A DNA stretch of 64,000 nt, taken from NCBI RefSeq assembly GCF_029338255.1, contig NZ_CP119787.1, forward strand, positions 2,805,631-2,869,630, in the 5' to 3' direction. A program made the position numbers and the translations under genes. Below, piece after piece: positions 58,990 through 64,000 of this stretch (its first letter is position 1; the number at the start of each line of letters is the position of its first letter). This stretch comes from Haloarcula halobia. Lineage in GTDB: Archaea; Halobacteriota; Halobacteria; Halobacteriales; Haloarculaceae. The notes under the pieces were generated by a model, which searched no databases, was not told the DNA's origin, and saw only the letters and a program-made list of their open reading frames with translations.

Positions 58990-59529
58990 TCACGGTTCGT
59001 CCCCGTACGTGGCTGGCTCACCGGCAAGCAACCCGTCGACCAGGCGCGTGAACCGGTCGACCAGACGGTTTGCGATCGACGGCTCCACCAGCCGAAGCAT
59101 CCGGGCAGTCTCCTCTGGGTGTGCGATGACGAGTGTGACGCGGTTGCGAGTATCGCGCTGCTTCTCGACGAGATCTTGTTCGACGAGGTGGTCGAGATGC
59201 CACTCGAGGGTGCTCCGTGCGATATTCACCCCGTCGGCCACTGCGTTGGGTGCACTCGGGCCGTTGGCCATGAGGTAGACGAGGACGTCCCGCGCGGTCT
59301 CTCGACGGAGCACGGCCAACGCTCCCCGTTCCCAGGTTCCGTACTCCGGCGTGTAATAATGCGTTCGGCCGTACAGCGATTCCTCGACGACATCGTCGGA
59401 GCCTTCGAGTTTCCGCAGGTGGTACTGGACCTGCCCTGGTGCGAGATCGAGCGTCCGGGTGAGTTCGTTGAAATGGATGCCAGGATTCCGACGAACCTGA
59501 TGTGCAATTCGATTTCGTGTTCCGGTCAT
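58990..59529 (-). CDS. Two-domain winged-helix transcription regulator
   Basis: From ATG 59529 the protein has 179 residues with two winged-helix units: PGIHFNELTRTLDLAPGQVQ with YHLRKLEGSDDV, and APNAVADGVNIARSTLEWHL with DHLVEQDLVEKQ. This double layout is common in haloarchaeal membrane-linked regulators. A GTG 33 bases upstream is possible but adds no conserved sequence. It diverges from the small membrane-protein gene split by the insertion at 59957, its usual kind of neighbour. Confidence 0.8.
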   Translation of the reverse strand: MTGTRNRIAHQVRRNPGIHFNELTRTLDLAPGQVQYHLRKLEGSDDVVEESLYGRTHYYTPEYGTWERGALAVLRRETARDVLVYLMANGPSAPNAVADGVNIARSTLEWHLDHLVEQDLVEKQRDTRNRVTLVIAHPEETARMLRLVEPSIANRLVDRFTRLVDGLLAGEPATYGDEP

Positions 59530-59950
59530 TGGTTGCTGTTCTCGACTGGGGAGCGAACTCACCGATCCAGCTGTACTGGTATCTTTGGGCAGTGACTTCT
59601 ATATCTCACGGTCCACCGTTCGGGTTCGGCGATTGAACCACAACTTGTGAGTCGATCTGGCTACTGTGAGTAGCTACACCTGACCGGCCACGTCGGATTT
59701 CCGGGTCGCAATCACAGGCTCTCGATATCGTCACTCACCACTGACGGTCTATTACCACTCCATGCCGGAGTGTCACCGTCCGATAGCCTGCTTATCGTCG
59801 CCCTCGGCACCGGCACGGTGTTGTCGATACTGCTCGCGTTGCTCTCCGTCGTGGCGTTCGTTAAGCGACGGACGGTTTCCGACCTGCTCATCACGGTCGC
59901 CGTTTCGACATTCCTCGGGAAGACGAGCTTGGGACTCGTGTATCTTACCA

Positions 59951-59956
59951 GCGGTA
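59951..59956. repeat. Target-site duplication (left copy)
   Basis: GCGGTA, identical to 61633-61638 outside the other end. Removing the element and one copy restores the interrupted reading frame. Confidence 0.85.
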
Positions 59957-60005
59957 GAGCCTGTCATAGAACGCGTCACGTACGAAGCAGCAGGGTGCGG
60001 AAAGT

Positions 60006-61002
60006 GTGTCCAGCAGAACCGCAACCCTGCAAGATGTGGATTCAGTAGACGACTTCTTGAATGTCGCGGCTACCGACACAGTACCGCTATTCGAGCACCT
60101 TGAGTTCGAGTTTCTGCTGGAGTACGACGTGTTCGCCCCTTCGAAGCGGGGGCGAACACGTGTACACAAGCCACCAGACCTCTTTCGCGGCTTTCTCCAC
60201 TGCTACTACGAGGATGTTTACGGTACACGTCCGGTTACACGAGAACTTCAGCACGGCCTCGTCTGGTACTACTGCGGACTCGACAAACCGCCATCCAGAG
60301 ACACGATTGATCGCTTTCTCACCGATCTCGAACACGTTGTCGACGACATCTTCGACAGGCTCGTCGAGCAGGCCGCCGCCCGCGGCCTGCTCGACTCCAC
60401 GTACTCTATCGATTCGACGCACATCGAGGCGATCCAACACAACGACGCCGCCTCGTGGAACTACGACCCAACAGCCGAAGAGTCTACTACGGCTTCGGCT
60501 GTACGATTGTCTCGACTGGCGCAAAGATCCCGATAGCAGCGGAGTTCACGCAAGCCAAGAAGCGGATCAGGAGACGGCGATTCGCGTCACGCGTGACGCG
60601 CTCGCCGTCGACACACCGATCTGGATGCTTGGAGACAGCGCCTACGATATCCTCGATTGGCACGACTACCTGCTGGCTGCAGGGGTCGTGCCAATCGCCC
60701 CATACAACCCGCGAAATACTGACGACCCGAAAGACATCGAGTACAGGGTCGAAGACCAAATCAAGGAATACAACGGGGACGTGCAGCTGAAACAATCCAT
60801 CTTGGACGAGACGTACAACTGCCGCACAGGAGTCGAACGAACCAACGACGCAGTCAAGCACTGCGGCCTCGGGCACGTCCGCGCCCGAGGCCGCGTCCAC
60901 GCACGAACAGAAGTGTTCGTTGCGCTCTGCCTCCGGCTCGTTGTTGTCATCACCAACTACGAGCGCGGAGACAATCCGGGAAGCACGATCATCACGTTAT
61001 GA
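60006..61002 (+). pseudogene. Frameshifted DDE transposase of the 59957 element
   Basis: The protein starts at GTG 60006 (TLQDVDSVDDFLNVAATDTV) and runs through STYSIDSTHIEAIQHNDAAS in the first frame. Near 60485 it shifts to another frame (YYGFGCTIVSTGAKIPIAAE) and near 60560 to a third (QEADQETAIRVTRDALAVDT, MLGDSAYDILDW, GVERTNDAVKHCGLGHVRAR) up to the stop at 61002. Catalytic regions are present but spread over three frames, so an active enzyme would need two frameshifts. It is of the IS4/IS5 type DDE clan; exact family is not certain. Confidence 0.8.
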
Positions 61003-61027
61003 GACTGTTTCTATGACACCCTCTCGG
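61001..61027. repeat. Internal copy of the terminal inverted repeat
   Basis: This stretch directly behind the transposase stop matches the functional right end (61610-61636) at 20 of 27 positions with the shared core TTCTATGACA, and its complement matches the left end at 16 of 21. It is probably the original right end of the element. Confidence 0.65.
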
Positions 61028-61242
61028 CAATAGCTGTCATACTCACCTCGGAATCATTCGATAACACCCGCAGTGTGGTCTATTTGTTACGGAGCTCTCG
61101 TTTTCGATCTTCGATCGCAGCCCGAATGTCGGATTTGAGTTCACCTAACGATTGCCTCATTGCGCTCTCTAATTTCGTCAGGGTTTCGTCTTCAGTGTAC
61201 AATTTTTTTCGTATCCTTTGTAGGCATGGATCTTCCTCGTCT

Positions 61243-61527
61243 TCAGGTCGACGGCACGGAAGATGTCGATTCAGGCTCCGAGTGGAGCCCGACCTGGCCG
61301 GTCGAATGGGCCGTCACACGATAGTCACAGTACGAGAACTCGACTGACCGCTCGGAATGGGTGTCGGTGACGTTCGAATGCCGAAGCAACGCATTGAGGG
61401 CGTCTGGATCGATGGTTTCGTACAGAGGGGGTAACTCACAGATATCTACGCCAGTTTCTTCGGCAACTTTTTTACAAACCTCGTATGCCGCATCCCATCT
61501 TTCGGTTGTATCTGTGCTGACTATCAT
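61243..61527 (-). CDS. HalOD1-domain protein inside the insertion element
   Basis: From ATG 61527 the protein has 94 residues covering a HalOD1 output domain: STDTTERWDAAYEVCKKVAE, then ELPPLYETIDPDALNALLRH (the diagnostic L-P-P-L-x2-x-I-D-P-D-A-L) and VEFSYCDYRVTAHSTGQVGL. Longer in-frame reading crosses the terminal repeat, so the inner ATG is chosen. HalOD1 domains are haloarchaeal signalling outputs of unknown action. It lies entirely within the outer inverted repeats, so it moves with the element. Confidence 0.8.
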   Translation of the reverse strand: MIVSTDTTERWDAAYEVCKKVAEETGVDICELPPLYETIDPDALNALLRHSNVTDTHSERSVEFSYCDYRVTAHSTGQVGLHSEPESTSSVPST

Positions 61528-61632
61528 CACAACAAATCTACCACCCCGATTGATAAACACACTTCCCGTAATCTCAATCCCTGAGAACACCTCTGTAACT
61601 GGTTCGTACGTGACGCGTTCTATGACAGGCTC

Positions 61633-61638
61633 GCGGTA
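61633..61638. repeat. Target-site duplication (right copy)
   Basis: GCGGTA, identical to 59951-59956. Confidence 0.85.
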
Positions 61639-61757
61639 TGAATACCGGTATGCATCACTCGTTCGAACACTCACTTGACGTCGTTATGATGGTGCTCGTC
61701 CTCGCTGCAGTCTATTACGCTCGCACCAGTGAAAGACGCCAGCGCAGACCCAACTGA

Positions 61758-62242
61758 TCTACGCAGTACCGTGCGTTCCCCCAGCAATCGACAGGCGGGT
61801 ATTTCGTCGCCAGGTGCTGGGCCACGACGATACATGGTGACCATCGCGCGCCGAATACGATTCGGCAACGACCACTCTGGTTCGGGATTCGAACGGGCCG
61901 CTATTCGGGAGCGCATTCTCCCACGCACACCGGGGAGGAACTCGCGTGAGGGCAGCCGTGAATCCGGCGTGCAGTGGTCGCAGCGACCGCCAACCTCTGA
62001 ATGGACCTGTTCGAACACCCCGTCTCGCATCAGGGTGCGCTCGCAGTTGACTGCAATAACGGTCCCGATCGGCGAATATGGTATGGCGAAAACACTCGGA
62101 GTTCTAGCCCGCTGTTTCGTCTCTATGACGAGAGAAGCAGTATTCGAATCCTGGCGAGCGAGCACGGGCCGAGAGTCCACAGGGGCGGGTATTCGAGACC
62201 CGAACCAGATACCCCAAATGGTCGAGGTCGTAAATCCCGATT
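61758..62242. other. Gene-free stretch before the SCO1-like gene
   Basis: Long readings exist on both strands in this 485-base stretch, but none has a recognisable family, signal or consistent composition. It should hold the promoter of the sco-tlpA-ccdA operon. No RNA gene is seen. Confidence 0.4.
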
Positions 62243-62920
62243 ATGCACAGACGAGCGTTTCTCAGGTCGACCGGAGCAGTCGCAGCAATCGGTGGACTTG
62301 CCGGGTGTCTCGGGAGCGCTGGCCTCGGCGGTTCGAACCCCGACGTCGCTCTCGGGGAACCCGACCGTGAATTCGAGAGTAGCGACGTTCCGTATCCGGC
62401 GTGGGGCGAACGAATCCCGGATGTGACTGTCCCCGCGCCGGTCGATTCCCGAGAGGTTCGTCTTCGTGACGTCGAGACACCGTCACTCCTCACGTTCTTT
62501 TACAGTCATTGCCGAACCGTCTGTCCCGTCCTCATCTCGACACAGCGAAATATCCAGGCCCACGCGGAAAACAACGGGTACAGCGACGCAGTCTCGTTCT
62601 TCCCGACGACGTTCGACCCCGCCCGCGACACTGCCGAGCGCCTTCGGACGTACGCCGACGACATGAACGTCGACGCCGAGCGTGAGAACTGGCACTTCCT
62701 CCGGCCTGCCTCGAAGGAGCGGGCCAAGGCAGTCGTACAGGACCAGTTCGGCGTGGCCTTCCAGCGCACCGAACCCGAGGACATGGACATGTACATGTTC
62801 ACACACTCGGCCCTGACGCTGCTCGTCAACGCCGACGGGTTCGTCGAGCGCGCCTATCGCACGAAGTCGCCGGACGAGGAGACCATCATCGCCGACCTAA
62901 GAACGGTGAGAAACGCGTGA
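62243..62920 (+). CDS. SCO1/SenC family lipoprotein
   Basis: The 225-residue protein starts MHRRAFLRSTGAVAAIGGLA with Cys22 in LAGCLG: a Tat-type lipoprotein signal. The thioredoxin-like domain has Cys89 and Cys93 in FYSHCRTVCPV and His187 in MFTHSALTLL, the copper-binding triad of SCO, as well as TTFDPARDT. SCO delivers copper or reduces thiols during assembly of the CuA centre of haem-copper oxidases, outside the membrane. It overlaps the next gene by four bases. Confidence 0.92.
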   Translation: MHRRAFLRSTGAVAAIGGLAGCLGSAGLGGSNPDVALGEPDREFESSDVPYPAWGERIPDVTVPAPVDSREVRLRDVETPSLLTFFYSHCRTVCPVLISTQRNIQAHAENNGYSDAVSFFPTTFDPARDTAERLRTYADDMNVDAERENWHFLRPASKERAKAVVQDQFGVAFQRTEPEDMDMYMFTHSALTLLVNADGFVERAYRTKSPDEETIIADLRTVRNA

Positions 62921-63444
62921 AGCGCCGGCAGGCCGTCGCCGCGATCGCAGGGCTCGTACTCACCGGCGGAAGTCTGTGGGTCACCCAGAGCGGTTTGCCA
63001 GACGGACAATCGCGAGGTGAGGACCAGCTGCCGATCCGCGTCGAGACCCTGGACGCACGCGGATCGACTGCCGGGCAGGCGCTCGTCCCGACACCGGATA
63101 CTGTCACCGTCGTCGATCTGTTCGCCACCTGGTGTGCCCCCTGCGACGACCAGCTCGCGATTCTGAACGCGATTCAGCCCGAATACGACGAGGTGTCGTT
63201 CGTCTCCGTGACGAACGAACGCCCGAGCGAGACGCTGACCAAAACTGACATCGCCGAGTGGTGGAACCGCAACGACGGTGCCTGGACCGTCGGCTCGGAT
63301 CCCGGAAGCGAGCTGCTGGCGGCGTTCGGCGCGGGCGGACTCCCCTACATCGCCATCGCCGACGAGAACGGAACCATCCAGTTCGGTCACAGCGGGCTCG
63401 CCAGGGAGGAGACACTCCGAGACCAACTCGATTCACTGGTGTAA
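62917..63444 (+). CDS. TlpA-like membrane-anchored thioredoxin
   Basis: Starting at GTG 62917 (GTGA overlap), the 175-residue protein has an N-terminal hydrophobic anchor and a thioredoxin fold with the active site FATWCAPCDDQL (Cys73, Cys76) and cis-Pro segment AGGLPYIAIAD. TlpA-type proteins reduce disulfides outside the membrane for cytochrome c or oxidase assembly. Its neighbours SCO and CcdA fit this path. Confidence 0.9.
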   Translation: MKRRQAVAAIAGLVLTGGSLWVTQSGLPDGQSRGEDQLPIRVETLDARGSTAGQALVPTPDTVTVVDLFATWCAPCDDQLAILNAIQPEYDEVSFVSVTNERPSETLTKTDIAEWWNRNDGAWTVGSDPGSELLAAFGAGGLPYIAIADENGTIQFGHSGLAREETLRDQLDSLV

Positions 63445-63445
63445 G

Positions 63446-64000
63446 ATGGTCGAAACTGCAGTCGTTGGGGCGCTTGCCTTCGCCGCAAGCGCTGGCGTCG
63501 CGACGTTCTTCGCCCCCTGTGCGTTCCCGCTGCTTCCGGGCTACGTCGGATACTACCTGAGCGAGAACGATGGAGATACGAGTATGCTCGCACCTGCTGG
63601 TGCCGCTGCCGGCGGCGCACTCGGCGCTCTCGCCGCCGTCGCGCTGCTCGTCCTGGTGGTGGGTCAGTCAGTGAAGACCGCACTGCCGATCCTCGAACCG
63701 GTTATCGGGGCCGGGCTGATCGCCTTCGGCCTCGTGACGCTCCTGGACCGAGGGCCGGAACTTCGCGTCCCGCTTCCCGAACGACCGGCCTCGGTAACCG
63801 GATTCGGTGTGTTCGGCGCCGTCTACGCAGTTGCCGCAGCAGGCTGTGTGGTGCCCCTCCTCTTTGGCGTGGTCACCCAGGCGGTCGCATTGCCGGTCCA
63901 CTCGAGTGCTCTCGTGCTGGCCGTGTATGCACTCGGGGTGACGGTCCCACTTGTTGGCGTGACGCTGCTCGCGGGCGCCGGAATCGACTCCTGGCGCTCC
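63446..64000 (+). CDS. ccdA: CcdA/DsbD-type thiol transport protein (partial)
   Basis: The gene starts at ATG 63446, one base after the TlpA stop, and runs off the window; 185 residues are seen. Membrane helices carry the paired cysteines Cys25 in ATFFAPCAFPLLPGY and Cys134 in AAAGCVVPLLF, the pattern of CcdA, which passes electrons from cytoplasmic thioredoxin across the membrane. It would keep the preceding TlpA and SCO reduced. Confidence 0.9.
   Translation, partial: MVETAVVGALAFAASAGVATFFAPCAFPLLPGYVGYYLSENDGDTSMLAPAGAAAGGALGALAAVALLVLVVGQSVKTALPILEPVIGAGLIAFGLVTLLDRGPELRVPLPERPASVTGFGVFGAVYAVAAAGCVVPLLFGVVTQAVALPVHSSALVLAVYALGVTVPLVGVTLLAGAGIDSWRS

Follow-up and report, generated by a model that had tools for sequence, protein, structure and literature searches.

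The 1676-bp segment at 59957-61632 of the window (the whole 64,000-nucleotide stretch of Haloarcula halobia DNA that was analysed) is, with high probability, a passenger-carrying insertion sequence (IS) of the transporter type, which formed by way of its outer, matched pair of ends and is now non-autonomous. A DUF7471 gene was the target of a single insertion, 1676 bp long, that consists of a chimeric IS and 579 bp of foreign DNA and is flanked by a 6-bp target duplication. Insertion sequences with passengers are a known kind of object, and this unit is a new one that is notable for its readable anatomy. It provides a clean, fully bounded archaeal case of a host signalling gene, here of the HalOD1 type, made the cargo of a transposon. 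The intermediate anatomy is legible: the old end lies inside, the new end lies outside and the native ends are mismatched. The target and the boundaries of the unit are listed here, with G023 denoting a sister genome.

59770..59956, + strand: 5' part of the DUF7471 gene (the target), ending in the target duplication; PF24283, E 2.3e-7.
59951..59956, no strand: left target-site duplication GCGGTA, from the sequence; one copy in the G023 empty site.
59957..59986, + strand: left terminal repeat, 30 bp, with the CC-type core GAGCCTGTCATAGAA, from sequence comparison.
61603..61632, - strand: outer right terminal repeat, an exact 30-bp inverted left end, from sequence comparison.
61633..61638, no strand: right target-site duplication GCGGTA, from the sequence and the G023 empty site.
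61639..61757, + strand: 3' part of the DUF7471 gene, from the joined frame and the G023 alignment.

The first-pass annotation had described perfect 30-bp outer inverted repeats and a 6-bp target duplication, and both descriptions are borne out. The repeats are perfect over the outermost 30 bp (the 34-nt arms, 59957-59990 and 61599-61632, show 97% complementarity), and GCGGTA occurs at 59951-59956 and again at 61633-61638. On sequence grounds, a perfect 30-bp repeat pair within 2.2 kb is not a chance match. Removing 59957-61638, that is the unit plus one copy of the duplication, restores a DUF7471 frame of 101 codons, and the joined 101-aa protein matches its G023 counterpart at 87%. The joined flanks give an unbroken alignment to G023, with 87% identity over 2484 bp and 92% across the gene, and AGCGGTATGA is the single copy at the empty site. 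Both the IS and the HalOD1 gene are absent from this site in G023, therefore the unit was inserted as one piece, in agreement with the earlier view that passenger DNA, here about 580 bp, moved together with the IS. The restored frame and the empty site prove the boundaries independently of the repeats. Only one copy of the 1676-bp unit was found in its own genome and in 146 genomes of the family and 392 of the order (overlapping sets).

In the region 58990-63560 of the window, the interrupted gene has a gene for an HVO_0163-type HTH regulator on one side and a SCO1/SenC gene on the other. The latter is followed by a thioredoxin-like gene and then probably by a CcdA-like gene. By interrupting DUF7471, the insertion may affect a cluster for copper or for cytochrome maturation.

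The left part of the unit is an IS with a right end of its own.

59957..61023, + strand: ISNpe2-like IS5-family element, 1067 bp, chimeric; 88% identity to annotated ISNpe2 copies, with copies of the same length in its own genome.
60006..~61002, + strand: transposase pseudogene with two 1-base deletions, near 60484 and 60560; DUF772 and DDE_Tnp_1 fall in different frames.
61009..61023, - strand: inner (original IS) right end, core GAGGGTGTCATAGAA, GG-type, from core comparison and sliding identity.

Positions 59951-61030 are 88% identical in DNA, over 99% of their length, to copies annotated as ISNpe2, and other plasmid copies reach 90%. Plasmid records carry the same element as IS5-like ISNpe2, ISHti7 or ISHla6; these names come from record annotation and were not found in the literature searched. 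The transposase is spread over three frames and has two 1-base deletions relative to intact relatives, and its DDE_Tnp_1 and DUF772 matches place it in the ISNpe2-like IS5 family by DDE transposase homology. In that family matched cores bound 1.06-1.07 kb, whereas the inner 1067-bp IS has CC/GG cores and the matched pair is the outer one, at 1676 bp. The body of the element belongs to the ISNpe2-like IS5 family and the moved unit is a derivative. Copies with shared ends give a base IS length of about 1063-1070 bp. Their target duplications are mostly 5-9 bp, so 6 bp is normal.

The first-pass annotation had proposed to look for short copies that stop at 61023 and for other copies with the same outer ends and HalOD1 gene. 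The short copies, which it had predicted, are common, while none of the second kind was found. Six related copies occur in the same genome (L002-L005 at 86-87% identity, L006 and L007 at 78%), all stopping at the inner right end, and many complete ones occur elsewhere. The transposase frames of L002-L004 are intact and identical to one another, and their transposase is a possible helper in trans.

The inner right end had been called degenerate, which it is not. It has a perfect family core, GAG[CG][CG]TGTCATAGAA, but of the GAGGG subfamily, while the left end is GAGCC. Sliding identity to L028, a relative of CC-type, stays at 90-98% as far as about 60945 and drops to 64-69% beyond it. For the GG-type relative L166 the corresponding values are 63-88% before about 60945 and 87-88% after. 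On these profiles the inner IS is a chimera, of CC-type to about 60945 and with a GG-type right end. For the comparison of ends, 74 complete oriented elements of 1040-1080 bp were gathered. The dinucleotides at core positions 4-5 are matched in 68 of them, and the inner IS alone combines CC with GG. The outer pair of the unit is CC/CC. Matching of the ends may govern which ends are chosen, which would explain the use of the outer end.

At its outer right the unit does not have a right end of the family but its own left end, inverted and exactly copied. Beyond the common 15-bp core, AGCGTCACGTACGAA follows in left ends and, for example, TCCATCTCATAGCTT in right ends; the unit has CGCGTCACGTACGAA at both ends. 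At position 16, A is found in 88 of 91 distinct C-type left ends, and C in the two ends of the unit and in one divergent copy. Since this C is otherwise private to the two ends of the unit, one was very probably copied from the other. No further exact left-left pair was found among 68 genome-contig loci and the family genomes, and a search for the left-end copy in viral contigs found none. According to the first-pass annotation, its reading would fall if all homologous copies lacked the HalOD1 part and the right repeat at 61603 belonged to a separate element. All other copies do lack HalOD1. The repeat at 61603, however, belongs to the same element: it has the left-end variant peculiar to this element, and the target duplication next to it forms a pair with that at the left end.

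These observations suggest how the unit was formed. The IS would once have stood beside the HalOD1 gene, with a 30-bp copy of its left end on the far side, and this far-side end may have been a stub, left from another copy of that IS in inverted orientation. The IS5-type transposase would then have cut at the outer pair and taken the gene along. The outer pair would have been used because the IS's own ends were mismatched (CC, GG) while the left end and the stub were matched (CC, CC). The transposase gene would have decayed afterwards. Any further move would require a transposase in trans, and intact related ones are present in the same genome.

Could the unit instead be the product of two events, a simple IS insertion beside an existing HalOD1 gene and an unrelated solo end or MITE that supplied the outer repeat? 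The inner right end is a complete IS end and MITEs occur in haloarchaea (PMC3119063), but GCGGTA pairs the left end with the outer end, the inner end has no duplication matching the left flank, and the outer end carries the private variant of the left end. The G023 empty site lacks both parts and already refutes this explanation, unless G023 precisely lost both, and it is very improbable.

Two other proposals concern only the origin of the outer end. In one, which is compatible with a passenger-carrying unit, two inverted IS copies moved together with HalOD1 as a compound transposon, and a deletion after insertion then left 30 bp of the right copy. An inverted left end on the far side is the expected trace of an inverted second IS, and two other loci, L265 and L266, resemble remnants of such composites. 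A deletion that spared exactly the outermost 30 bp and the duplication is possible but untraced, and short outer ends suffice without a second IS body in L174, L192 and L217 (see below). This origin seems somewhat unlikely. The other proposal is that one-ended or aberrant transposition, or template switching, copied the left end to a position beyond HalOD1 with no second IS involved. It fits the exact 30-bp copy, including the private variant, and the abrupt junction; against it, there is no direct trace of such copying and no second exact left-left pair among the left ends examined, and it appears unlikely.

A passenger-carrying IS that moved by its outer ends can be compared with systems that are already known. 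Insertion sequences with passenger genes, mobile insertion cassettes (MICs) and solo ends have been described (PMC3129680). Like a transporter IS (PMC3129680), the unit consists of one IS and has a non-transposition gene within mobile ends: HalOD1 lies between the 30-bp ends, with a duplication and an empty site. It differs in that it keeps the original right end inside, with the passenger between the old and the new end, and in that its transposase is dead. The two frameshifts make it a decayed, non-autonomous derivative of a transporter IS. With MICs it shares cargo between compatible ends and the need for transposase in trans; however, MICs have no transposase gene and the unit retains a pseudogene. 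A compound transposon also has a host gene between two related IS ends, but the unit has one IS body and on its right side just 30 bp, not two ISs. The IS body, the 15-bp core ends, the length of about 1063-1070 bp and the 5-9-bp duplications are those of ISNpe2, ISHti7 and ISHla6-like elements, whereas the additional 609 bp to the outer end and the chimeric right end are not. In Halorubrum lacusprofundi a transposon passenger gene has been named (PMC10544981), and one MITE of haloarchaea is known to contain an ORF other than a transposase (PMC3119063).

The passenger DNA lies between the inner and the outer right end.

61024..61602, no strand: passenger DNA, 579 bp; 73-75% identity to chromosomal and plasmid HalOD1 loci over 61101-61466 and adjoining stretches.
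61080..61202, - strand: small ORF downstream of HalOD1, conserved in homologous loci; annotated in Haloarcula sp. GH36 as a 147-nt CDS for a hypothetical protein.
61243..61527, - strand: HalOD1 gene, 94 aa from the ATG; PF18545.
61550..61557, - strand: TTTATCAA, resembling a TATA box and lying some 30 nt before the ATG, from the sequence; candidate leaderless promoter.

The protein matches the HalOD1 profile PF18545 with an E-value of 5.5e-21 and 74.9 bits (cut-off 26.3). Its frame is intact, and the open frame runs upstream through the outer repeat to 61674. Comparison with homologs makes the ATG at 61527 the most likely start, and the TATA-like box would fit a leaderless haloarchaeal promoter. 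The NCBIfam model DdfA (NF053557) scores 73 bits, marginally above its cut-off of 70, and the name DdfA for the passenger gene is marginal. Like stand-alone HalOD1 proteins (PMC5847659) and DdfA (PMC10869688), the product is a small HalOD1 domain protein; the difference is that its gene is carried by an IS. A DdfA protein proper would also be needed for disk-shaped cells. Stand-alone HalOD1 genes are common in haloarchaea and have been reported on a plasmid and in haloviruses (PMC5847659). The unit offers a route for their spread.

Relatives of the passenger, with 73-75% DNA identity, were found in G005 (L022), on a plasmid of Haloarcula sp. GH36 (L127) and, in part, in G096 (L023). The first two adjoin genes for a helix-turn-helix regulator and a response regulator. 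The order in the nearest-relative loci is regulator, HalOD1, small ORF and response regulator, which is an ordinary setting. The passenger DNA was found next to the IS in no other place among the family and order genomes, and a scan of the genome contigs with the HalOD1 protein gave no relatives. The eight other HalOD1-like genes of the genome itself have at most 39% identity. As they are all distant, the donor was another genome or a locus since lost. Between the passenger gene and its relative in G005, dN/dS is about 0.3 (dN 0.22, dS 0.71, 73 codons), which indicates constraint on HalOD1 during most of its history; the ratio does not bear on its use after capture.

A HalOD1 gene had been thought an unusual cargo. 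This view is to be tempered, as other elements of the clade carry other passengers, although HalOD1 itself was found in no other such unit. Fetched loci, sampled by similarity to the unit's own right or left end, were scanned for inward-facing core pairs with exact duplications; because of this sampling, passenger frequencies among them cannot be extended to the clade. Passenger DNA and an additional outer end, with duplications of 6-10 bp, occur in five or more further elements of the clade; by chance about 0.1 such duplications would be expected among 106 pairs.

L174, 513-2880 (G404): 2368 bp, ATCTAA duplication, intact transposase, a 372-aa probable lipoprotein and the outer end.
L217, 4006-6865 (G418): 2860 bp, AACTCAA duplication, a membrane protein resembling DUF4386 (score below the Pfam cut-off).
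L192: 1316 bp, duplication GTACTGGTTC, a small ORF with a hydrophobic stretch.
L115, 4036-7782 (Natrarchaeobius chitinivorans): 3747 bp, GTACGT duplication, several passenger ORFs.
L250: 1890 bp, TTGGTT duplication, passenger on the left side.
L246, 2001-5075 (G203): 3075 bp, ISNpe2-type outer ends, 9-bp duplication CTACGATAG, an Nramp transporter gene.

In L174, L217, L192 and L115 the order is IS, passenger and outer end. For L217 there is an empty site: G447 is without the unit and continuous across the joint at 92%. The search for an empty site of L192 gave no continuous match, and the L174 lipoprotein has no close homolog in one other genome of its genus. L115 is bounded by two left-type ends, and its cargo includes DUF4870 and a weak GIDE-like match. 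L246, in which a nested transposase gene of IS630-like appearance lies beside the Nramp gene, and L238 are cassettes with transposase remnants only.

Together with several independent passenger units, the H. halobia unit makes the route from a small IS to a gene carrier testable, as end choice by core match. A wider proposal, tentative and a little short of probable, is that neighbouring host genes routinely become cargo in the ISNpe2 clade, through a switch to any nearby compatible end. The good end of a chimeric or mismatched IS and a solo end beyond a gene would make a new transposon in one step, and small regulatory and membrane genes would spread among haloarchaea in this way.

Several further loci were considered as cargo elements. 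L069 and L211 were ruled out as each has a nested transposase gene of another type, L255 as it has what is apparently a nested IS, judged from its ORFs, and L043, L096 and L106 were set aside as they differ by internal sequence. L096 5494-6646 and L106 3890-5036 (Natrinema pallidum) have in common an internal 83-bp tandem duplication at IS positions 738-820; this disabled form seems to have multiplied, perhaps in trans. L265 (5002-7408) and L266 (2094-5075) have one shared target duplication (TGGGCAA / TTGCCCA) in two genomes; they look like what remains of a composite with an IS stub at either end, apparently passed down from a shared ancestor.
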